Virus record (IMG/VR): IMGVR_UViG_3300032213_002336
Location: 1 to 24,143 of that record
Strand: one strand, 5' to 3'
Source: a virus
DNA length: 24,143 bases
Part shown: in pieces, positions 4,114 to 23,785 of the stretch
Layout of the letters: each line of letters starts with the position of its first letter
How positions within the stretch are numbered: the stretch's first letter is position 1
Position numbers and translations under genes: made by a program
The notes under the pieces: generated by a model
The model's input: the letters and a program-made list of their open reading frames with translations, nothing else
The model's database searches: none
Told to the model about the DNA's origin: nothing

Positions 4114-4556
4114 TGCCTATCTACGAATTTCGCTGTCAAAACGGTCATAGCCATGACGAGTTGCACAAGTGGCCTGCCCCTGAGGTCGTATGGTGCAACG
4201 CATGCAAGAGCAACGCATTCCGCCAAGTGTCCATGCCTCAGAAGACCGCAGGCAAGTGGGGTGACACAGGGGCAAAGTTTATCCCAGCCTTTGGTAAGGA
4301 ACTAACCACCTCTCAGGCTGCAGCTGAGGCGAAGAAGCGGGGCCTAGTCCACGAGGCCGACCTCCCCAAGCACTTCATCGAGGACAAGCTCGATAAGGAG
4401 TGGCAGGACGCTCGTCAGCACGACAAGACGATGGAAAAGTTTAAGGAACTCAAGAAGACGCACGATGGTGATGCGTCAAGAGCGTGGTCCGAGGTCTTCT
4501 CGGTCGACGAGATGAAGAAATCAGGCACACTAAAGGAGGATGTCGCCAATGGCTAG
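4113..4556 (+). CDS. FmdB-like zinc-ribbon protein
   Basis: This encodes 147 residues. The opening MPIYEFRCQNGH matches the start of FmdB-type small zinc ribbons (MPxYxxxCxxCG...CxxC). Potential zinc ligands are C8, H12 or H14, and the C28-x2-C31 knuckle (WCNACKS). The second Cys of the first knuckle is replaced by Gly, with His one residue later, so metal binding would be Cys3-His type. The remaining 100 residues are charged and helical, rich in Lys, Glu and Asp, with no known domain. It is translationally coupled to the portal (TAATG) and overlaps the next gene by 8 bases, so it is made with the head proteins. A role in head assembly or as a DNA- or protein-binding accessory is inferred. 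Its true function is unknown. Confidence 0.75.
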   Translation: MPIYEFRCQNGHSHDELHKWPAPEVVWCNACKSNAFRQVSMPQKTAGKWGDTGAKFIPAFGKELTTSQAAAEAKKRGLVHEADLPKHFIEDKLDKEWQDARQHDKTMEKFKELKKTHDGDASRAWSEVFSVDEMKKSGTLKEDVANG

Positions 4557-5151
4557 AGGTATACCAATGGAGATGGGCGCCAAGGGCGCTCCCATGATGA
4601 AGGATGAGAAGGGTATGGACAAGAAGATGTCCGTCGAGGTCGAGATTGAGAAGGGCCCCATGGAGCCTGAGGAAGAGGAACTCATGGGCAAGGCTCAGGA
4701 GATGGACGACATGGAGGAGGAGGCCTATGGTGCCGCCGCTCCTCAGGGCGACTTCTCTGTCAGCGGTCTCAACGCGCTGGTTGACGGTCTGAATGCTGTC
4801 CTGCCCATGTTCGACATGCCTGACTATGAGCGCTTTAGTGAGGGCATGACCACGCTCCCACCCAAGTTCATGAAGCAGCTGACAATGGTCAATGAGGCTG
4901 CAATGGCAGCTGGCCTGGATGACATGGTAGTCGACTTCGCCACCATCACCGATGATAAGTCCCTGAAGATGGCTGCTGGCAAGCTTCGCACTCTCGCCGG
5001 CAACACATCCTTTAAGCGCTTCCTCAGGTCCGAGCGTCCTGAGGCACCCACAGCCCCTGCACCTGGTGGTGTTCCAGAGGCTCCCATGGCTGCACCCGCT
5101 GCTGCAATGGGCATGTCTGAGGACGACTTGATGATGAGCCGTCTCAGTTAA
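4549..5151 (+). CDS. Met-rich acidic protein between portal and scaffold, unknown function
   Basis: This encodes 200 residues from ATG 4549, chosen because AAGGAGG (4533-4539) lies 9 bases upstream. The ATG at 4540 directly abuts that site and is unlikely. By hand count 24 of 200 residues are Met. Residues 1-60 alternate Met with Lys and Glu and include an acidic run (PEEEEL), suggesting disorder. A central region of about residues 65-165 looks globular and helical. The C-terminus is Pro/Ala-rich (PTAPAPGGVPEAPMAAPAAA) and ends in an acidic Met-rich helix. Such proteins between portal and scaffold may be capsid accessory or inner-core proteins, but I do not recognise the family. Confidence 0.75.
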   Translation: MARGIPMEMGAKGAPMMKDEKGMDKKMSVEVEIEKGPMEPEEEELMGKAQEMDDMEEEAYGAAAPQGDFSVSGLNALVDGLNAVLPMFDMPDYERFSEGMTTLPPKFMKQLTMVNEAAMAAGLDDMVVDFATITDDKSLKMAAGKLRTLAGNTSFKRFLRSERPEAPTAPAPGGVPEAPMAAPAAAMGMSEDDLMMSRLS

Positions 5152-5164
5152 ATCACAGAATGAA

Positions 5165-5181
5165 CCCAGCATAAGTCTGGG
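5165..5181 (+). promoter_or_regulatory. small hairpin before the scaffold ribosome site
   Basis: CCCAG (5165-5169) and CTGGG (5177-5181) are perfect inverted arms around a seven-base loop, 11 bases before AGGAG (5193-5197). No T run follows, so it is not a classical terminator. It could tune translation or mRNA stability of the scaffold gene. Confidence 0.3.
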
Positions 5182-5210
5182 ACACTTTAAATAGGAGAAT
5201 GAGTATTACC

Positions 5211-6080
5211 ATGGCTGAAGCAAACGTGAATAACGGCGTGTCACCCGTAACATCCGGCGATGCACCGACTCACACTGTCACCGTTGACCACGGAACCCCA
5301 AGTTCTGATGGCTCGACCCCAAACAGTGTGAAGGGTTCGAATCATGAGAGGTTGGAAAAGGCATATGCCCAGGCAACCGGTGGACAGAAGCTGACCAATG
5401 AGCCACTCACAGTCGAGCGGTTGGCAGAGGTTCAGGGCATTCCTGAGGGAGAGTTCAAGGGTGTCGACTACAATCGCACCATCAACGAGCTTCCTGAGGA
5501 TGCGAAGAAGATTCTGGCCAACCTCCGCTCTGACTACACTCGCAAGACCCAGGAGATTTCTCGGCAGCAGAAGGAGCTTGAGGCCCAGCGTCAGGCTCTT
5601 CTGGAGTCCGATGCATATCGAAACATCCAGGCTAAGGCCACTGAGGCCCCTGTCGATGCTGACCCTTGGGACCCACAGGCCTTCAATCAGCGCATTGAGC
5701 AGGAAGTTGCCAAGCGACTGACTGAGGTCCTGAAGCCTATGCAGCAGGAGTTCGAGGTCCAACAGCGTCGTCAGAAGTTGGACAAGTTTAAGTCGGACAA
5801 TCCCGACCTGGAGGCCTACAAGACTGAGATTGTTGAGGTCCTCAAGACCAACGACAACCTCAGTCTCGAGCAGGCTTATTACATGGTAAAAGGTCGCAGT
5901 CAGACCGAGACCCTTCGCAAGGCTGAGCAGGAGCTCCAGGCTTACAAGACAGCCGCGAAGGACTACGGTCTCAAAGTATCTGTTGGCTCAGTGAATACAG
6001 GCCCACTGAAGCCACCAGCTTCCGTCAAGAGAGATGCCTACAGCGTTTATCGTTGGCTTCAGGCAAATCAAAAGGCCTAG
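5211..6080 (+). CDS. capsid assembly scaffolding protein
   Basis: This encodes 289 residues. Scaffolds template coat assembly inside the procapsid and then leave. The protein is highly charged: a disordered Thr/Ser/Gly-rich N-terminus (1-45), a long helical and coiled-coil section including LRSDYTRKTQEISRQQKEL (105-123) and RIEQEVAKRLTEVL (161-174), then a short basic C-terminal helix (SVKRDAYSVYRWLQANQKA, 271-289) of the kind that binds coat subunits. It sits directly before the coat gene. The start is uncertain: AGGAG (5193-5197) is one base from ATG 5199 and 13 bases from ATG 5211, neither ideal. I prefer 5211; using 5199 adds four residues. No protease signature is visible. Confidence 0.85.
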   Translation: MAEANVNNGVSPVTSGDAPTHTVTVDHGTPSSDGSTPNSVKGSNHERLEKAYAQATGGQKLTNEPLTVERLAEVQGIPEGEFKGVDYNRTINELPEDAKKILANLRSDYTRKTQEISRQQKELEAQRQALLESDAYRNIQAKATEAPVDADPWDPQAFNQRIEQEVAKRLTEVLKPMQQEFEVQQRRQKLDKFKSDNPDLEAYKTEIVEVLKTNDNLSLEQAYYMVKGRSQTETLRKAEQELQAYKTAAKDYGLKVSVGSVNTGPLKPPASVKRDAYSVYRWLQANQKA

Positions 6081-6211: not shown

Positions 6212-7207
6212 ATGGCTGCAATAAGCAATGACATCCTCAGCTCCACCCTGCGCATCCTCCTGGATGAGGCAGTCGACAACTTGTACCGTTCGACTCCCCT
6301 CCTCGACCAGATTCGCGCAGACGGTGGTCTTGAGCTCTACGACGGCGGCTCTCAGCTCGACGTCCCTCTCATCCTTGAGGAGCACTCTTCAATCACTCAG
6401 ATGAGCTCAGGCTATGAGCCCATCAACCTCGCCGTGCAGGACGCACTCCGTCAGGCCCAGTTCGGTTGGTGTGACTTCATCGCCCCCATCGTTATCACCC
6501 AGCGTGAGGAGCTCTCCAACAAGGGCGACCGTGCGGTTCTCAGCATTGCTGAGGCTCGTATGAAGTCCGTGATGGGCACTCTCCGTCGTGAGTGGGAGAA
6601 GCAGGCCGTGGCTGGTACCTCTACCATCCTCAGCGACATGCTCACCCTCAATGGTGGCGCAAGCAGCACAGGCTTCCTCGAAGGCCTCGCTGTCACCACG
6701 CAGAACAACACCGTTGGTGGTCTCTCGAAGGCTACCTTCCGCGAGCTTGAGAATCAGTTCGTCGATGCGGGTACGACTCTCAGCATTCCTGAGATGAGCA
6801 ACCTCATGATTAACTGCCAGATTAAGACCCCGGACGGTTCGGCTCCCAACCTCATCCTCGCCTCGCCGCTGTTCTACCAGACCTACAAGGGTCTGCTCTT
6901 CAACAACGAGCGCTACGTTGATGAGTCCACCCTCGACGGTGGACGCCTCGCCCTGGCATTCAACACCGCTAAGATGTACGTTGACAGCTTCCTTCCTGCC
7001 GTCTCTGACAGCTCGAATGCTCTGTCCGCCTACTTCCTCAACACGAAGTACCTCAAGGTCGGCTTCGACTCCGATGCCAACTTTAAGATGAGTGACTTCG
7101 AGACTGTGTCCGGCTACGCTGCTCGCTCTGCGAACATCTACGTCCGCACACAGCTCTACTTCCACCACCTAGCATCACAGGGCGTCCTGGTCAGAGGAGA
7201 ATCGTAA
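6212..7207 (+). CDS. major capsid protein (HK97-fold type)
   Basis: This encodes 331 residues. It is the main shell subunit of the head. It follows the scaffold and has a strong ribosome site (AGGAG 6198-6202, 9 bases before ATG). Recognisable segments are the N-terminal helix, the E-loop-like region with SGYEPINLAVQDALRQAQF (66-84), and IAPIVITQREELSNKGDRA (90-108) leading into a long Arg-rich spine-type helix. That order is typical of phage coat proteins of this class. The rest is mixed alpha/beta with VRTQLYFHHLASQGVLVRG near the end. There is no long N-terminal delta domain or protease site, matching use of a separate scaffold. Only the fold class is claimed. Confidence 0.88.
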   Translation: MAAISNDILSSTLRILLDEAVDNLYRSTPLLDQIRADGGLELYDGGSQLDVPLILEEHSSITQMSSGYEPINLAVQDALRQAQFGWCDFIAPIVITQREELSNKGDRAVLSIAEARMKSVMGTLRREWEKQAVAGTSTILSDMLTLNGGASSTGFLEGLAVTTQNNTVGGLSKATFRELENQFVDAGTTLSIPEMSNLMINCQIKTPDGSAPNLILASPLFYQTYKGLLFNNERYVDESTLDGGRLALAFNTAKMYVDSFLPAVSDSSNALSAYFLNTKYLKVGFDSDANFKMSDFETVSGYAARSANIYVRTQLYFHHLASQGVLVRGES

Positions 7208-16275: not shown

Positions 16276-19200
16276 ATGCCAGCACCTAAAGTTCCTGCAG
16301 GACTCCCAGCTGATAGAGTCCAAACTTACAATGACCTGTATGATTTGCTTGGACAACAAGCTGCAGATGACTTTGCCGTAGGCTTTGGAGCTAAACCTGT
16401 TGCACCTGCACCTGCACCTGCTCCAACTACTACGCCAACTCCAACTACTACACCTGCTCCAGCACCTGTCACACTAAATCTGCAACGAGGACCTGACGGC
16501 AGAATTGTAAACATGCCAGTTGGCACAACACCTCCACCTGTTGACATGCCTGAGGTACGTACACAGCTTCAGGACCGTCCAGGTATTCCTGCACTTCGAA
16601 TGACGCAGGATGAGTTGACCGAGTCTGCAATCAAGGCTCGCACAATTGTCCTTCAGCGCAGTGGTCTTGATTATGAAACGGCACGCAAGCAGGCTGAAGA
16701 AGCAATTGCTGCCGCACGTAATGCACCTCGTACTGTGGAGTTTAGGCCAACTCCTGCAAAGCCTGCTGGTTACTCAGAGCTTGCAGTTCGTGGTGAGGAG
16801 ATGCTTCCCAAGCTTAGTGCAGGTGAGGCAACTATTGAGGCAATCAAGCCGCAAGTCCTTGAGACAGAGTCACAGGCCGAAGGCCGTCGCCGCTTTGAGG
16901 AACAGCAGAGAGCAGCAAAGGCTGAGATTGAGCGAATTGCTCGTACAACTGGCAGGATGAAAAAGGTTCCTGCTCCTACTATTAAAGACCCAAAAGCCGA
17001 AAAAGAAGTTCCTGACCTCGATGCAATTATTCCAGGTCTTGAGGCTGCTAACTTACAGAAAGCTAATGCTATTTTGGCTCAACAGTATCCAGATGGTAAA
17101 GTTCCTGGTCCTGGTGGTTATGCTAAGGCTCAGCAAGAAATACTGGCTGCACTTAATGCGCCTCTGTATGCTGCAGTTGATGATTACAAGCCTGCGCGTT
17201 CATTGGACGTGGGTGAGGGAATTAGTAATGTTGCGATGGATGCGCTTCGTGGTCTCACACAGGAAGAGAAGCAGGGCAGGCTCGTTGAGACAAGAGGCGC
17301 TGCAGCTCTTCGTAATATTGGCGGTCTAACACGATACGGCATCAAAGGACTCGAGAACGTTATTGTTGAGCCAGTTGTCAAGGGAATAGTTGCGGGCATG
17401 GACCCGTCAGTAACCTACGGTGACCTCACAAGGCTTGAGGAAGAAGCTATTGAAGGTGGCGGTGGCGTCAGCAGATTCGAGGGGGCAGGTGTCAAGTACG
17501 AGAAGGGCTTCGAGACAAGAAATAAGCTAGAGACTGGAAGTTACCTAAAGGATGTTGCCTACGAGGTTGCCACTGGTCGTTCAGCAATCGATGACTGGTA
17601 TGATGCTGGTGCACCAGTTGCAGTAGCAACAGTGCTTGGTGTTATCACAGAAATTGGTCTGCCTGCCTCACCTATTGGCTATGTAACCGATGTTGCAACA
17701 CCTGCGCTGCGGTTGGTCTCTAAGGTTCCCTATGCTGGTGCTCCGCTTAGAGCAGCCGGTCGTGTCCTTGATGTTGTAGGTGACCTTCCTGAGGCGATTC
17801 GTCTAAATCGATTTATCAAGGACCAGATTAAGAATGCTCCTGACCTTGCAAAAGCACTAGATAATCCGGGATTTATGAAGACATGGAGTAATGTCTCTGA
17901 TGCTCGTGTCAACCTGGCTATCAAGGTAGCTGATGATGCATCTGATATTGCAGCAGTCACCAAACTTGTGCGTGCTGGAGATAGTGCTAAGATTGGTGCT
18001 CGCATTGCTAATGTCATTGAGGGTGCTGTTGATGGAACAAGTACTATTAATAAGATTGGTGCAAAACTATGGGATGACTTTGTAGGCACAGGCACAATGT
18101 CTGAGGGTGAATTTATTGCAGCACTTCGTGACCCTAAAGCAATAGGTCTTGAAAACGATATCCTCAGAGTTTCAAAGGAAATTAACTCTGCCAATGTCCA
18201 AAAGTTGACATCATCTACCGCATCAGATATTGCTCGTAACTCTTATGCAATTGCTATGAAGTCAGTCGATGACTTTGCATCTCCTCGTGATGCAGTTGTT
18301 AGAGCAACTCTGGCTGAGACACTGGAGAAGGTTCCTAACTCCAAGTACATGTTCATCACTCCTCGCCTGATGGTGACCAAGGAGCTGGCAAACAGCAAGC
18401 CATTCCAAAAGGAGATTGCTTCCGCTGTCCGTGCTCTACCCCCTGACTCATCCATCGATGACGTCATGCGTCAGGTCGAGAAGACAATCAAGGAGAAGTT
18501 TAAGGGAACTAATATTGCTGAACCTGCAGCCATGACTCCACCAACAGCTGAAGGTCTGCTTCCTACTGCACCTCGTGGTGGACTTGAGCGTATTGCAACT
18601 CCTGCAGCTCGTCGTATGACAGTTACTGAGGGACTTCAGGACCTTAGAGATACACTTAGGGCGCTTAGACCATCAGATAAAAAGCTTGTAAGTGAAGCAT
18701 TTGCAGGTAGCACATTTATTGATGGCACACAAAAGACACTCGATACTGCACTTAATGCACGTATTCCAGTTCAGATGCGCGACTTCCTTGTCGCAACAAA
18801 GTCTGAGATTGAAGCTCTCGGTGTTGCTAAGACACGAATTGTAGGTGGAAAGATTGAGGGCACACTTATCGATGCACTTCGCCTGCAGGGTGACAATGCG
18901 CTAGATGCTTACCTCACCGCCAGAATCGAAGCTGACCTTGGTGACATGACAACTCTTCGTGCTTCAAGAGTGAAAGGTGCAGTTGGTTCGAAAGCATTCT
19001 CAGCACTTGATACTAGTAGGTCAGATGCTATTGAGACCATTGTCTATAACTTTTTTGGTGACAGTGTTGATGTACTGACAGACCCTAGCGTGGCAAAGAT
19101 AATCTCAACTGCAGCAAAGAATGCATCTGAAAATGCAACATCAGCATTGGATGCTGTAATTGAAGCTATTGCAACAACACGTGCTAACATTCCAGAACTT

Positions 19201-21426
19201 GCAACTGCAGGTCGTCGAGGTGCTGCGGCTGTAGATGTTAAGATGATTGGGTTGAAACCTTCAGTATCACTTCGTGATGATGTGGCATCGGCTGTGCTTG
19301 ATTACATTATTACTCAGGAAGCAAAGGTTATCTTTACTGAGAACTTCTTCAAGAACTACCCAGAACTTCAGTTTAATCCATCTCAGTTTACTAACAATGC
19401 AAAAGCTGCAATTTTCAATCAGCTTGATGCCAGTGCGGCAACGGGTGCGGTGGATGCTGCCAAGGTTCAACAGGCAAAAGACATCATCAATGCGCACCTT
19501 AGTGTTGACATCAATGCACAGCAACTTGCTAAGGATGCCGTTGTTAACTGTAGCCAGATGATTGTTGATGGTTCTCTTGACTTTTCAAGAGGAACAGTCT
19601 TTAGCAGGACAGGACCTGAAGCAACAAAACTACTTATTGACTTGAATGCATTAGGTGAACCACTCATTGTTAATGCAGCAATTAGAGGAATGACAGCTAC
19701 TATTAAGCCACATGCTGAGGCGGTGACTTCATTCCTGATGCAGAACAAGATTTTGCGTCCAATCACCGAGAACGATATTGTGACATTCCTGGCAAAGGAT
19801 GTCTATGCTCCTATACCTCAGTCACAGAAGACGCTTATCGAATCTCTTATTGGTCCTATTGATAAACTTCGTTCTGGTAAGTCAGTTATTGCCGATAACC
19901 TTGGTGCTATCTACAGGAATCCAGCTTCCGGTCTTGGAGTTTCTGTTACCCAGGCTGCAAAGTCTTTTATGGATACAGTCCGTGGTCTATCAGTTCCTGG
20001 CTTGACTGCTGGTGTTCCTCTACCAAATGCCAAGTTCTTCTCACTGAACTACTTCGGTGCACCACTTATCATGTCTATCACATCACCTGGTCTTGCTGCA
20101 AAGACAATGCTTGGTGAACTCAGTCGTATTATTCCTATCCGCTCATGGCAGGAAGCAAACCTCTCGTTCACCAGGCAGATGGCAAAGACAGCACCCAATG
20201 ATGTTGCTTTCGTGTCAACCACTGGCATCCCATACACATACGGTCAGCTCAACAAGTTCATGGATGAGAACTACTTCGGTATGACTCAGGAGACATTCGC
20301 ATTCGCTAACAAGTTTGGTGAGGATGTCAGGATTGAACTAGGCCTGAACCATGCAGGAACGCCAGCAAGTGGACTTGATAAGAGCCGTGATGCTGTCCTC
20401 CGCTACATGAACGTAGCAGGCACAAACTACTACACCAGAGTTGCTTCATCGGTTGACACCGGTTGGCGTCAGCAAACATTCCTTGCAGCACTGAAGAATG
20501 GTGAGACCGTTGAGAGTGCACGACGTGTTGCTGCCAACGCAGTCCTTGACTACGGAAGAATACCAGCTGATATTCGAACAATGGCACGTCGTTACATGAC
20601 ATTCTTCAGTTGGTTCGCAGTTAGCAATGCTGAGGTGTTCTCAGCTCTATTGAGACCTGCTGCGGCAGCAAACATTGCAAAAGGCATCAGGGCACAGAGA
20701 GACCTGCACCGCGGATTCGGTGAGTGGACATACAGTGATGATGACTTCAAGAAGAGAATGTTTAGCGTCAGCATTGGAAACTACGATGACCTTCCTGCCT
20801 ACTACGTGGGTCCTGAAAATCCTGTTGTTGGACCACTCATTGACCAGGTATCAATCACACTTGGACTTGCTGCAATAGCATCTGGTGATGAAACACTTGC
20901 TGGTGGATTTGAATCATTAAGCAGTGCAATTGTTGAGAAGTCATTCACACCATTCCTTGGTTACTTATCTGACATAGGTGCACTAGGTGAGTCGGGAGCA
21001 ACTGGTAAGGTTGTGCCGGCCAGACAGATTGCATTCCATCGTGCAATGGGTGATGCACACTTCGGTGACTGGATGAGGGATAACAACATCACCACAGTTA
21101 CAACTGACGAGAGGCGTGTTGGTGAGCCAACATTCTACGGTCAGCAGTACATGTATGCTGATGAGGATGCACGCAAGAAGGCAGCATTCATGGACTTCAT
21201 GCTTGTCATGTCAGGTATGGGACGTGCACTAAACGACTACTCTCAGATGGGTCTTATCCTTGCTCCTCCTCCAGGCACAGAGCTGAAGAGGTTTGATAAC
21301 ACAGGTCTTGGTGTCCTTCAGTACTTTGCCGCTGGCAACCTATCGAAGGGAACTAATGAGCACGAGGCTGTGCGGTCTGCAATCATTAGCACCAACGCAG
21401 AACTCAGGAAAATGTCGGAGAATTAA
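16276..21426 (+). CDS. giant internal virion (ejection) protein C
   Basis: This encodes 1716 residues, with AAGGAA (16266-16271) 4 bases before ATG. It is the largest gene and third in the ejection block; T7 gp16 is 1318 residues. Residues 41-65 form an Ala/Pro/Thr linker. The body is helical, with a hydrophobic region near 443-485 (VAVATVLGVITEIG...) that could insert in a membrane. The segment at about 1426-1464 (DYGRIPADIRTMARRYMTFF and what follows) is the proline-plus-aromatic helix pattern often seen near the C-terminus of giant phage internal or polyvalent proteins. I see no lysozyme or transglycosylase signature, unlike T7 gp16. A role in forming the DNA channel is inferred from size, composition and order. 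Confidence 0.65.
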   Translation: MPAPKVPAGLPADRVQTYNDLYDLLGQQAADDFAVGFGAKPVAPAPAPAPTTTPTPTTTPAPAPVTLNLQRGPDGRIVNMPVGTTPPPVDMPEVRTQLQDRPGIPALRMTQDELTESAIKARTIVLQRSGLDYETARKQAEEAIAAARNAPRTVEFRPTPAKPAGYSELAVRGEEMLPKLSAGEATIEAIKPQVLETESQAEGRRRFEEQQRAAKAEIERIARTTGRMKKVPAPTIKDPKAEKEVPDLDAIIPGLEAANLQKANAILAQQYPDGKVPGPGGYAKAQQEILAALNAPLYAAVDDYKPARSLDVGEGISNVAMDALRGLTQEEKQGRLVETRGAAALRNIGGLTRYGIKGLENVIVEPVVKGIVAGMDPSVTYGDLTRLEEEAIEGGGGVSRFEGAGVKYEKGFETRNKLETGSYLKDVAYEVATGRSAIDDWYDAGAPVAVATVLGVITEIGLPASPIGYVTDVATPALRLVSKVPYAGAPLRAAGRVLDVVGDLPEAIRLNRFIKDQIKNAPDLAKALDNPGFMKTWSNVSDARVNLAIKVADDASDIAAVTKLVRAGDSAKIGARIANVIEGAVDGTSTINKIGAKLWDDFVGTGTMSEGEFIAALRDPKAIGLENDILRVSKEINSANVQKLTSSTASDIARNSYAIAMKSVDDFASPRDAVVRATLAETLEKVPNSKYMFITPRLMVTKELANSKPFQKEIASAVRALPPDSSIDDVMRQVEKTIKEKFKGTNIAEPAAMTPPTAEGLLPTAPRGGLERIATPAARRMTVTEGLQDLRDTLRALRPSDKKLVSEAFAGSTFIDGTQKTLDTALNARIPVQMRDFLVATKSEIEALGVAKTRIVGGKIEGTLIDALRLQGDNALDAYLTARIEADLGDMTTLRASRVKGAVGSKAFSALDTSRSDAIETIVYNFFGDSVDVLTDPSVAKIISTAAKNASENATSALDAVIEAIATTRANIPELATAGRRGAAAVDVKMIGLKPSVSLRDDVASAVLDYIITQEAKVIFTENFFKNYPELQFNPSQFTNNAKAAIFNQLDASAATGAVDAAKVQQAKDIINAHLSVDINAQQLAKDAVVNCSQMIVDGSLDFSRGTVFSRTGPEATKLLIDLNALGEPLIVNAAIRGMTATIKPHAEAVTSFLMQNKILRPITENDIVTFLAKDVYAPIPQSQKTLIESLIGPIDKLRSGKSVIADNLGAIYRNPASGLGVSVTQAAKSFMDTVRGLSVPGLTAGVPLPNAKFFSLNYFGAPLIMSITSPGLAAKTMLGELSRIIPIRSWQEANLSFTRQMAKTAPNDVAFVSTTGIPYTYGQLNKFMDENYFGMTQETFAFANKFGEDVRIELGLNHAGTPASGLDKSRDAVLRYMNVAGTNYYTRVASSVDTGWRQQTFLAALKNGETVESARRVAANAVLDYGRIPADIRTMARRYMTFFSWFAVSNAEVFSALLRPAAAANIAKGIRAQRDLHRGFGEWTYSDDDFKKRMFSVSIGNYDDLPAYYVGPENPVVGPLIDQVSITLGLAAIASGDETLAGGFESLSSAIVEKSFTPFLGYLSDIGALGESGATGKVVPARQIAFHRAMGDAHFGDWMRDNNITTVTTDERRVGEPTFYGQQYMYADEDARKKAAFMDFMLVMSGMGRALNDYSQMGLILAPPPGTELKRFDNTGLGVLQYFAAGNLSKGTNEHEAVRSAIISTNAELRKMSEN
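16402..16470 (+). repeat. Pro/Ala/Thr low-complexity repeat inside the giant ejection protein
   Basis: The reading frame repeats GCACCT, CCAACTACT and similar units, giving an Ala-Pro and Thr-Pro linker (residues 43-65). It separates a short N-terminal helix from the main body and is probably a flexible tether. Repeats of this kind can vary in length between related phages. Confidence 0.8.
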
Positions 21427-21430
21427 TAGG

Positions 21431-21694
21431 ATGCCAAAGAAGACGCCAGTTTTGAACAAGCCTCGTCCCCTCAAGAAGGGTGAGGCCGGCTATGGCAAGA
21501 AGCGTAAGGTTGTCTACGTCAAGAACCCAGCCACTGGGAAGGTGAAGACAATCAAGTTCGGTGATGCCAAGTTGGGCATGAAGAAGGGCATTCCTGCCCG
21601 CAAGAAGAGCTACTGCGCACGTAGCAGCGGACAGAAGAACACCAAGAATAAGCTTTCGGCCAACTACTGGGCGCGAAAAGATTGGGGGTGCTAA
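21431..21694 (+). CDS. basic mini-protein 1 (KKSYCAR motif)
   Basis: This encodes 87 residues from ATG 21431, with GGAG (21417-21420) 10 bases upstream, four bases after the giant gene's stop. By hand count it has 21 Lys, 5 Arg and only 3 acidic residues. The C-terminal half contains ARKKSYCARSSGQ (56-68) and ends WARKDWGC, so two Cys bracket the motif. I have seen similar K-S-[FY]-C-A-R...W-x-C endings in small phage proteins of unknown role, but could not check this. The codons return to G/C-ending compared with the preceding gene. It may be a nucleic-acid-binding virion protein; the function is unknown. Confidence 0.75.
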   Translation: MPKKTPVLNKPRPLKKGEAGYGKKRKVVYVKNPATGKVKTIKFGDAKLGMKKGIPARKKSYCARSSGQKNTKNKLSANYWARKDWGC

Positions 21695-21753
21695 TGCCCG
21701 CAATCACTCCGGACATTGAGTCCACAACACAACCAATCAAAGGGAGAAGGACA

Positions 21754-21903
21754 ATGAAGAAGTCGAAGATGTCGTCCAAGGACGGATTCAAGAAGTTTGC
21801 GCCAGCCAAGAACGCAGGCTCCGCCAAGTATCGCAAGCAAGTCATCAAGGGCCCAGTCAAGGCCAAACTGAAGGGTGGCGGTGCCAAGTACGGTGGTGCA
21901 TAA
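21754..21903 (+). CDS. basic mini-protein 2
   Basis: This encodes 49 residues from ATG 21754, chosen because AGGGAGAAGG (21741-21750) lies just upstream. An alternative in-frame ATG at 21694, overlapping the previous stop (TAATG), would give 69 residues with a non-basic N-terminal extension. From 21754 it has 14 Lys, 1 Arg and 1 acidic residue, with Gly-rich ends (LKGGGAKYGGA). No domain is recognised. It is part of a run of five small basic genes with overlapping ends, so a shared role is plausible. Confidence 0.6.
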   Translation: MKKSKMSSKDGFKKFAPAKNAGSAKYRKQVIKGPVKAKLKGGGAKYGGA

Positions 21904-22046
21904 TGGCCATCAAGAAGACTTCGAAGGGTTTCTACGCCACTTCGTCCCGTGGACGTAAGCTCAGCAAGAAGCCCAAGACCAAGAAGGCTGCCATGAAGCA
22001 GCTTGCTGCCGTTGAAATCAGCAAGATGAAGCGTGGCAAGAAGTGA
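21903..22046 (+). CDS. basic mini-protein 3
   Basis: This encodes 47 residues. The ATG overlaps the previous stop (TAATG) and the end overlaps the next GTG (GTGA). By hand count it has 14 Lys, 3 Arg and 1 acidic residue. Sequence features are KKTSKGFYATSSRGRKLSKK, then a Lys/Ala helix with a single Glu. It is short enough to be missed by routine length cut-offs. Evidence for a real gene is the tight stop/start overlap on both sides, an open frame in the same strand and composition matching its neighbours. Confidence 0.6.
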   Translation: MAIKKTSKGFYATSSRGRKLSKKPKTKKAAMKQLAAVEISKMKRGKK

Positions 22047-22213
22047 AGAAGAAGCCGCTCCCAAAGGGATACAAAGCCCCGCCAGGTTCAGCCCGTGCCA
22101 AGAAGTTAGCGCAGGCCTCGAAGCTGTACAAGAGCGGCAGAAAGCAGGCTGCTTTCAAGCTTCGTGATGCAATGGAGAGGAAGGTGAGACGTGGCAGCAA
22201 AAAGAAAGGTTAA
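22043..22213 (+). CDS. basic mini-protein 4 (GTG start)
   Basis: This encodes 56 residues from GTG 22043 (GTGA overlap with the preceding stop) to TAA 22211-22213. By hand count it has 15 Lys, 6 Arg and 2 acidic residues. The N-terminus is KKKPLPKGYKAPPGSARAKK, followed by an amphipathic basic helix (LYKSGRKQAAFKLRDAMERK) and a Lys-rich tail. The only other in-frame start is ATG 22169 late in the gene. The last 23 bases overlap the next gene's start. Coding is inferred from the open frame, overlaps and composition. Confidence 0.55.
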   Translation: MKKKPLPKGYKAPPGSARAKKLAQASKLYKSGRKQAAFKLRDAMERKVRRGSKKKG

Positions 22214-22424
22214 CTACAGTGGGATGGCAAAGAAGTACAAGACTACTCCGACTAAGGTCAGAAAGGTCTATGCGAAGGGACTTGCAGCATATGCATCGTC
22301 CGGAAGTCGTCCCGGTGTCACGGCTCACCAGTGGGCAGCAGCCCGAGTCCGAAGTGCCTTTACCGGTGGCCCCGCCGCTAAGGTTGATAGAGCAATCATC
22401 AAGGGCAAGACAAAGAAGAAGTAA
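22191..22424 (+). CDS. basic mini-protein 5 (conserved small phage protein type)
   Basis: This encodes 77 residues from GTG 22191, with AGGAAGGTGAG just upstream. By hand count it has 14 Lys, 6 Arg and 1 acidic residue. The middle (VYAKGLAAYASSGSRPGVTA, then HQWAAARVRSAFTGG, about 26-60) is a compact motif: Gly-Leu-Ala-x-Tyr, Ser-Arg-Pro-Gly, Gln-Trp-Ala-x-Ala-Arg-Val-x-Ser-Phe. I associate it with small proteins of unknown function in tailed phages (possibly the DUF5824 group; not verified). The tail is KGKTKKK. It is the most structured member of the basic cassette and the best for homology searching. Confidence 0.7.
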   Translation: MAAKRKVNYSGMAKKYKTTPTKVRKVYAKGLAAYASSGSRPGVTAHQWAAARVRSAFTGGPAAKVDRAIIKGKTKKK

Positions 22425-22446: not shown

Positions 22447-22872
22447 ATGGCAGCAGTCGGTAAATACATTCATAGTTCGAGGCATACAGGCCTCACAATC
22501 GCGTTGACCAATGCCTATGTGGCAGGCGCTCAACGTCACAATGCGCCGCTCTGGGAGGGGAATGATGGAACTAAGACCGCAGCATCTCCTGTCCGTGCAC
22601 GCCTCAGTGCCATCTACGTCCAGGTGGACACCATCGCAGCTGGTGCTACCACACTGACGATTCGTGCAACGAGCGATGCGGCAGGTCAGCTCATCATTGT
22701 GCCTGACACGACAGCCACCATCAGCACTGGCATCACAACTGCCACGGCAGGCGGTGTTGTCCTGAAGATTGATGTTGACTACAAGGCATCTGACAGCAAC
22801 TTCTACGTCCACTTCAAGACGAATGCTGGCACGTGCAACGTTAAAGTCCTAGAAGTGGCGTGGGAGGAATAA
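22447..22872 (+). CDS. small beta-rich virion-type protein
   Basis: This encodes 141 residues, with a strong ribosome site AGGAGGAG (22433-22440) 6 bases before ATG. After a short N-terminal segment (HSSRHTGLTIALTNAYVAG) the protein is a series of Thr/Ala/Val strands (LTIRATSDAAGQLIIV, TISTGITTATAGGVVLKIDV) typical of a beta-sandwich or jelly roll, ending NVKVLEVAWEE. It precedes the polyglycine adhesin by one base, so it may be its partner, an adaptor joining the adhesin to the tail, or a decoration protein. I do not recognise the family and no catalytic residues stand out. Confidence 0.65.
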   Translation: MAAVGKYIHSSRHTGLTIALTNAYVAGAQRHNAPLWEGNDGTKTAASPVRARLSAIYVQVDTIAAGATTLTIRATSDAAGQLIIVPDTTATISTGITTATAGGVVLKIDVDYKASDSNFYVHFKTNAGTCNVKVLEVAWEE

Positions 22873-22873
22873 C

Positions 22874-23785
22874 ATGGCTGGAAATGGCGTAGACGTATTT
22901 AGCGTTGACAACGCATTTAGTGGCGGCGGCGGTAGCGGCTTCTCTACTAGCTACGGTGACGGCCTCTTCGGTGACGGTGTCACTGGCACTGCCACAATTA
23001 CTGGCACCACCACACTGTCATCTGAGGCTTACTACAACAACCTCACCATCAGCAGCACAGGCATCCTAAAGCCAGCCGGCTTCCGCATCTTTGTGAAGGG
23101 CACACTCACGGTCGACAGCGGCGGCACCATCAATGACGATGGAAATCCTGGAAGCGGCATCACAGGTGGCGCCGCACTCGGGGCTCGTCAAACACTTAAT
23201 GCTGCAAGTGGCGTCGGTGGAAACGGTAGCAGCGGCGGCAACGGAAGCGTAGGAGGTGGTGCAACTAACTCCTCACTGAACGATACAGGTGTCGCTCCTA
23301 CAGGTGGTAAAGGCGGAGACGGTGCCCCTAACACCGGCGGAAATGGCGGTTCAGCTGGTCAGCCTGCACAAGCTCAACGCTGGCAAGGCACGGCCTGGCA
23401 ACAGCAAGGTCGCTTCAGCAACGGCACTGCCACAGGGCAGTTCAACGGTGGCTCCGGTGGTGGCGGCGGTGCCTCCTCAGCAGCGACATGCACAGGTGGC
23501 GGCGGCGGAAGCGGTGGCGGCTCGGTGTGGATTGCTGCAAAGAACGTGATTAACAACGGCCGCATCTCAGCCAATGGCGGCAACGGTGCGAACGGCTTCG
23601 GTGGAGCTGGTAATGCAGGTGGTGGAGGCGGCGGTGGAGGCGGAAACGTCTGCGTCGGCACTCTGTCATACACAGGAAGTGGCCTTCTTCAGGCTCTCGG
23701 TGGGCTGGGCGGAACGGCACTCGCTTCAGGCGTTGCTGGTAACAACGGCAATGCCGGAAGCACAACTGTGGTGGTGCTGTCATGA
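22874..23785 (+). CDS. polyglycine-rich adhesin / receptor-binding candidate
   Basis: This encodes 303 residues, with GGAGG (22863-22867) 6 bases before ATG. Residues 36-90 form a strand repeat of beta-solenoid type (TITGTTTLSS, NNLTISSTGILKPAGF, VKGTLTVDSGGTI). The rest is dominated by glycine, with runs at 192-199, 208-217 and 241-257 separated by short strands (SVWIAAKNVINNGRISANGG). Polyglycine-II sandwiches of this kind form the tip adhesin of phage S16 gp38, where loops between glycine runs decide the receptor. Aromatic loops at 169-181 (RWQGTAWQQQGRF) and the C205/C260 pair are candidate specificity or stability elements. It ends in an ATGA overlap. Receptor binding is inferred; homology to gp38 is by composition only. 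Confidence 0.7.
   Translation: MAGNGVDVFSVDNAFSGGGGSGFSTSYGDGLFGDGVTGTATITGTTTLSSEAYYNNLTISSTGILKPAGFRIFVKGTLTVDSGGTINDDGNPGSGITGGAALGARQTLNAASGVGGNGSSGGNGSVGGGATNSSLNDTGVAPTGGKGGDGAPNTGGNGGSAGQPAQAQRWQGTAWQQQGRFSNGTATGQFNGGSGGGGGASSAATCTGGGGGSGGGSVWIAAKNVINNGRISANGGNGANGFGGAGNAGGGGGGGGGNVCVGTLSYTGSGLLQALGGLGGTALASGVAGNNGNAGSTTVVVLS

Follow-up and report, generated by a model that had tools for sequence, protein, structure and literature searches.

Why would a phage place five consecutive genes for very small, strongly basic proteins in its late structural region? The window, a viral contig from IMG/VR analysed over its whole length of 24,143 bases, is from a water-dwelling bacterial virus and carries a terminase, a portal, a major head protein and a late structural region. 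The major capsid protein (PHROG major head protein) is encoded at 6212-7207 on the plus strand, preceded on the same strand at 4540-6080 by two acidic proteins, of 203 aa (pI 4.4) and 293 aa, which are scaffold-like by position only. The five-gene cassette lies on the plus strand between a 1716-aa protein (16276-21426, plus strand) and a 141-aa protein (22447-22872, plus strand). The first-pass annotation had called these neighbours a giant ejection protein and an adhesin, names for which Pfam and PHROGs give no confirmation; the 1716-aa protein has no match in either collection, and the synteny of the 141-aa protein is kept in four related contigs (L002, L084, L096 and L258). A glycine-rich 303-aa protein at 22874-23785, with no match in PHROGs, is also kept beside the cassette site in relatives.

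The five short frames that had been described, of 87, 49, 47, 56 and 77 residues, were reproduced: P1 (21431-21694, pI 10.6), P2 (21754-21903, pI 10.6), P3 (21903-22046, pI 11.4), P4 (22043-22213, pI 11.5) and P5 (22191-22424, pI 11.3), all on the plus strand. P1 to P3 start with ATG and, as had been noted, P4 and P5 with GTG. Computed counts of Lys plus Arg against Asp plus Glu agree with those made by hand, at 26/3, 15/1, 17/1, 21/2 and 20/1 from P1 to P5, and the isoelectric points of 10.6-11.5 compare with 4.4-7.8 for the 18 other window proteins checked. The description of mostly overlapping ends holds for three of the four junctions, namely P2/P3 (TAATG, a 1-base overlap), P3/P4 (GTGA, 4 bases) and P4/P5 (23 bases); a gap of 59 bases separates P1 from P2. 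P3 and P4 look translationally coupled. Shine-Dalgarno-like purine-rich stretches precede P2, P5 and the gene after P5, and GGAG stands upstream of P1. Opposite the cassette, a 170-codon frame is open on the minus strand (21552-22064), probably as a by-product of the lysine-rich genes.

The observation of a cassette of basic mini-genes is correct and reflects more than chance, because many other phage contigs encode homologues of P1, P3, P4 and P5, and their dN/dS is low. Searches by alignment of IMG/VR returned at least 484 relatives of P5; at least 522 relatives of P1 were found in the same resource, and 29 of P3 when a first alignment served as the query. In window comparisons with unsaturated dS, the dN/dS of P1, P3 and P5 was 0.10-0.26, and close P1 and P5 pairs outside the window gave medians of ∼0.05-0.06. 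Window pairs of P4 were saturated in dS, yet amino-acid identity is still 62-70% and synonymous change per site far exceeds non-synonymous change; the L084 and L086 copies of P4 gave a dN/dS of 0.11. Judged from these alignments, four of the five genes are under purifying selection, and the lack of conservation that would have spoken against the cassette did not appear in them. P2 is an orphan, with no relative detectable in our searches, and its standing as a gene rests on position, charge and a ribosome-site signal. It is doubtful, though a chance to be reckoned with, that P2 alone is a spurious frame in a translated gap: the lack of relatives speaks for this, but the frame has a strong Shine-Dalgarno-like sequence, TAATG coupling to P3 and a basic composition. 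Searching isolates directly with the window P1 and P5, by nucleotide sequence and by tblastn, gave no matches; divergent relatives were needed.

Two of the proteins could be placed in named families. P5 matches DUF5824 (PF19141; also phrog_28338) above the curated gathering score (40 vs 25 bits), and residues 7-85 of P1 give a significant full-length profile match to phrog_7595 (3.1e-10). The match of P1 to DUF6321 (PF19846) stayed under the gathering score, at 14.2 against 28.5 bits. Members 1 and 5 had been singled out as the only ones resembling known small phage proteins; the profile searches bear out the resemblance but not the restriction, as P3 and P4 also recur as families. DUF5824 comes without an assigned function, and is here linked to head genes, P1 and P4; phrog_7595 and DUF6321 likewise have no prior function. 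A literature search for DUF5824, DUF6321 and pelagiphage virion proteomes found nothing useful.

Structure models built with alignments of relatives predict that P1 (pLDDT 86, pTM 0.75) forms a two-stranded hairpin plus two helices, and that P5 (pLDDT 81, pTM 0.66) is helical. As both are predicted to be folded, they would not simply be disordered, protamine-like peptides. Foldseek returned no significant PDB match; the first ten matches of the P1 model were all to Cren7, at E values of 0.57 or worse. Cren7 is a DNA-binding chromatin protein of Crenarchaeota, and this non-significant likeness is offered as a lead only. A sequence search of solved structures gave weak matches, such as ribosomal L44. 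BFVD contains a phage protein with 96% identity, as well as a P1-type match to an entry called XkdF. We gave up the idea that P1 is a zinc finger, as the cysteines are missing from whole sub-families.

The company that these families keep points to the head. Most of the neighbouring genes encode portal, terminase, adaptor, capsid and scaffold proteins, and P1 and P5 group with portal, scaffold and capsid genes even where the capsids of the phages are unrelated. The synteny check that had been proposed for the cassette shows P5 immediately after P4 in the window, in L082-L087, L052, L062 and L096, and in the cultured Prochlorococcus phage P-HS2 (L320), whose cassette runs P4-P5-x-P1. P1 lies within the fetched flank at 52 of 80 P5 loci, which are not independent of one another, mostly at a distance of 0.3-1.6 kb. 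The position of the set varies among the window's near relatives: P4-P5 comes after a giant protein in L096, P1 and P3 stand ahead of the 143-aa and glycine-rich genes in L258, P3 stays before those two genes in L084 with P1-P4-P5 elsewhere, and L082, L083, L086 and L263 have the set immediately ahead of the capsid gene, next to acidic genes of scaffold-like type. A giant protein precedes basic genes in L002 as well as in L096. In marine phages with unrelated capsid proteins, P1 is found within clusters of several other small basic genes. Small basic ORFs made up 51 of 201 ORFs near P1, P3 or P5 and 5 of 239 far from them (odds ratio 16), in a count that used a crude gene caller and defined nearness by these same three families. 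Strongly repetitive basic proteins (MKKSKGG or MKNGG) occur in the same clusters as P1 in L008, L012, L016 and L027; another basic family (LYTDEDPKDT...) stands alone beside P1 in L008 and L075, and appears with an FKKFLKE leader in L279 (3943-4662). A few relatives lie away from head genes, such as that of Kolga, beside ribonucleotide reductase genes, and KVP40.0311 (L290, 5962-6141), a P3-like protein from a T4-like Vibrio phage in culture, amid tRNA genes; KVP40.0311 has a relative in nt-1, a phage of Vibrio natriegens.

The informative part of the evidence is the fusions. In the Roseobacter phage CRP-6, gp55 joins P1 to an XkdF head-maturation protease, and many P1-XkdF proteins are present in IMG/VR, with PF14550 in all six that were checked. 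In HTVC008M (Kyanoviridae) a cytidyltransferase carries P5 at its C-terminus, and the next gene ends in P1; Melnitz carries P5 and P1 in one protein. Cytidyltransferases of related phages (cyanophages) have been reported in purified virions (PMC3037559; PMC10665884), where P5 content was not shown and where, according to the authors of the second study, carry-over is possible. In T4-like contigs, P3 forms the C-terminal domain behind an extension that in several cases begins MKITKxQLKQIIKEE, and in L267 leader-type P1 and P3 proteins are encoded by consecutive genes. The N-terminus MKITKxQLKQIIKEE(L/I) is common to runs of otherwise unrelated proteins in L262, L264, L267, L274 and L275, which in the longer contigs are encoded close to a terminase-like gene; this N-terminus is a candidate capsid-targeting leader. 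In L286 (5001-5852) the order is reversed relative to the other fusions, with an N-terminal P3-like domain followed by a leader-like KTLKEFLEED.

The T4 prohead protease gp21 cuts after L/I-x-E and thereby removes the leaders of basic internal proteins (PMC9026906). In nearly all of the extended P3 proteins examined, the residue that opens the domain is also the last one of an L/I-x-E motif whose middle position varies (LDE, IME, LEE, IEE, LQE, LIE, LVE or LKE; LVE in KVP40.0311); in L284 the motif lies two residues further. The motif stands three residues ahead of the P1 domain in HTVC008M (LEE), C48C1 (LTE) and immuto (LDE), and four to five residues inside the modelled start of P5 in Melnitz (LDE), HTVC008M (IDE) and C48C1 (LEE). 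It was not at the tested place in P1 of Melnitz or L267, the latter having AVLDE nearby, nor at the domain start of P5 in DSL-LC01, in which gp21 was also not found. Taken one by one, the sites gave weak results in shuffle tests (p mostly 0.1-0.5); the argument is the motif's recurrence at this position, among sequences that are in part related.

The extended and bare forms also differ in the phages that encode them. A gp21 gene (PF03420) was recognised in 12 of 16 records with extended forms (records of at least 10 kb), whereas the 27 records with bare mini-genes yielded no such gene (Fisher p 1e-7), with classes assigned by hand and related phages counted separately. It was not detectable in the extended-form contigs L277, L299, L279 and L284, which may be fragments. 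T4-like ancestry alone could explain much of this association; what it establishes is that extended and bare forms are found in two different kinds of phage, and it does not demonstrate cleavage. The window encodes bare forms, its cassette proteins having no N-terminal capsid-targeting leader with L/I-x-E. Among the genes scanned in this 24-kb fragment no gp21 was recognised.

A link to the virion itself comes from a sister module. This basic module of 44 aa (KKDACYHKVKARYDVWPSAYASGALVKCRK...) occurred in 36 fetched loci, all with P1, a sample biased by most having been fetched by P1, and directly adjoins P1 in 24 of them. Preceded by ISE, it forms the C-terminus of S-CREM2 gp160, which as a whole protein was identified in the purified virion by mass spectrometry with seven unique peptides (PMC10665884, Table 3). 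In two stretches of S-CREM2, 4 of 14 virion proteins carried a T4-like leader, compared with 1 of 34 other proteins (p 0.02), by a pattern written after the sequences had been seen. Leaders of the type MKxFxxFLxE occur there (L326, L327) on genes for a virion-detected SAM hydrolase, kinase and cytidylyltransferase, as if these enzymes were cargo. The two small virion proteins of the siphovirus P-SS2 were also considered as family members and rejected.

We consider it probable, at about 0.62, that the cassette encodes small, mostly folded internal head proteins that are protease-independent and probably DNA-associated. The roles originally proposed were being packaged with the DNA or condensing it, forming part of the capsid or tail, and ejection into the host. 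A place in the head interior is favoured among these because of the P1-XkdF fusions, the leaders and L/I-x-E motifs beside P1, P3 and P5, and the detection in virions of gp160, the protein that includes the sister module. The proposal is thereby partly supported; condensation and ejection stay at the level of what we infer, as do, for this phage, the head location itself and contact with DNA, and, for T4-like relatives, cleavage. The proteins would be made late, together with the structural proteins, and would be incorporated into the procapsid, where acidic proteins of scaffold type may hold them. They would then stay with the packaged DNA, neutralising or organising part of its charge, and may exit with it at infection. 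In T4-like phages gp21 would be expected to cut the modules at L/I-x-E, freeing them inside the capsid, whereas in the window phage and its relatives mini-genes would code directly for the basic modules in finished form.

The same gene order could also suit head-assembly accessories that bind the acidic scaffold or shell and aid procapsid assembly, with no lasting role on DNA. The set lies between scaffold-like and capsid genes in L082, L083, L086 and L263 and precedes scaffold-like and capsid-like genes in P-HS2, and fusion to the XkdF protease fits as well. This reading is nevertheless unlikely, as the basic genes of the window, L258, L096 and L002 are far from the capsid gene, by the giant or glycine-rich gene, and as the strong excess of positive charge, together with the release-type motif, suggests that the proteins stay once the scaffold has been removed. 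Were the proteins instead head cargo acting in the host, with targets such as its DNA, restriction enzymes or transcription, they would resemble T4 Alt and IPI; T4 internal proteins do act in this way (PMC9026906), and the fusion of relatives to an enzyme domain and the variable, modular gene content agree with it. We regard such effectors as quite unlikely, since P1, P3 and P5 occur across unrelated phages with low dN/dS, which is unusual for host-specific effectors, and no catalytic motif was seen in them.

Late nucleic-acid binders that work in the cell, outside the virion, would condense DNA before packaging, bind RNA or shut off the host. Small size, basic charge, a late operon and the relatives found outside head-gene blocks are all compatible with such a role; the protease fusion, the leaders, the prohead-protease motifs and the mass spectrometry of the protein that holds the sister module make it very unlikely. 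Returning to internal head proteins, we tentatively suggest, at somewhat short of even odds, a wider pattern: P1, P3, P4, P5 and their sisters may form an interchangeable kit of basic 'head chromatin' modules common to tailed phages of seas and lakes, delivered in T4-like phages through prohead proteolysis of precursors that bear leaders, with fusion to virion enzymes in some cases, and encoded in finished form by other phages as mini-gene cassettes.

Internal basic proteins lying with packed DNA have hardly been looked for outside phage T4, and the cassette families, which often fall below the length limits of annotation, are unstudied in the literature that we searched. According to a 2012 paper, nothing indicates that basic proteins play much part in neutralising the dsDNA genomes of phages (PMC3281028); families seen hundreds of times in environmental viruses may do so outside the T4 group. 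If the wider pattern holds, protein-assisted organisation of packaged DNA would be common in phages. The reading as internal head proteins would give DUF5824 and phrog_7595 a function and make packaged cargo proteins recognisable in marine T4-like phages. The prediction is precise, in that it names cultured phages, peptides and exact cleavage sites.

Among known systems, the virion of PBCV-1 contains basic proteins, and kinases with 'basic adaptor' domains, that are reported with the virion DNA (PMC3281028). PBCV-1 differs in being a giant virus of eukaryotes and is likened here by description only; the common feature is basic modules, some of them fused to enzymes. The T4 internal proteins IPI-IPIII are basic, of ∼8-20 kDa, present at ∼360 copies each, and bear a capsid-targeting leader that is cut by gp21 (PMC9026906). 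The window versions differ from them in being leaderless and in forming a row of five different mini-genes. The cassette proteins match no named internal-protein family in PHROGs or Pfam, and with no leader on the window proteins we do not claim membership of the T4 family. What they have in common with the T4 proteins is small size, basic charge and genes placed with those for late head proteins, and the P1, P3 and P5 relatives in T4-like phages add to this leader-like N-termini or extensions that carry L/I-x-E.
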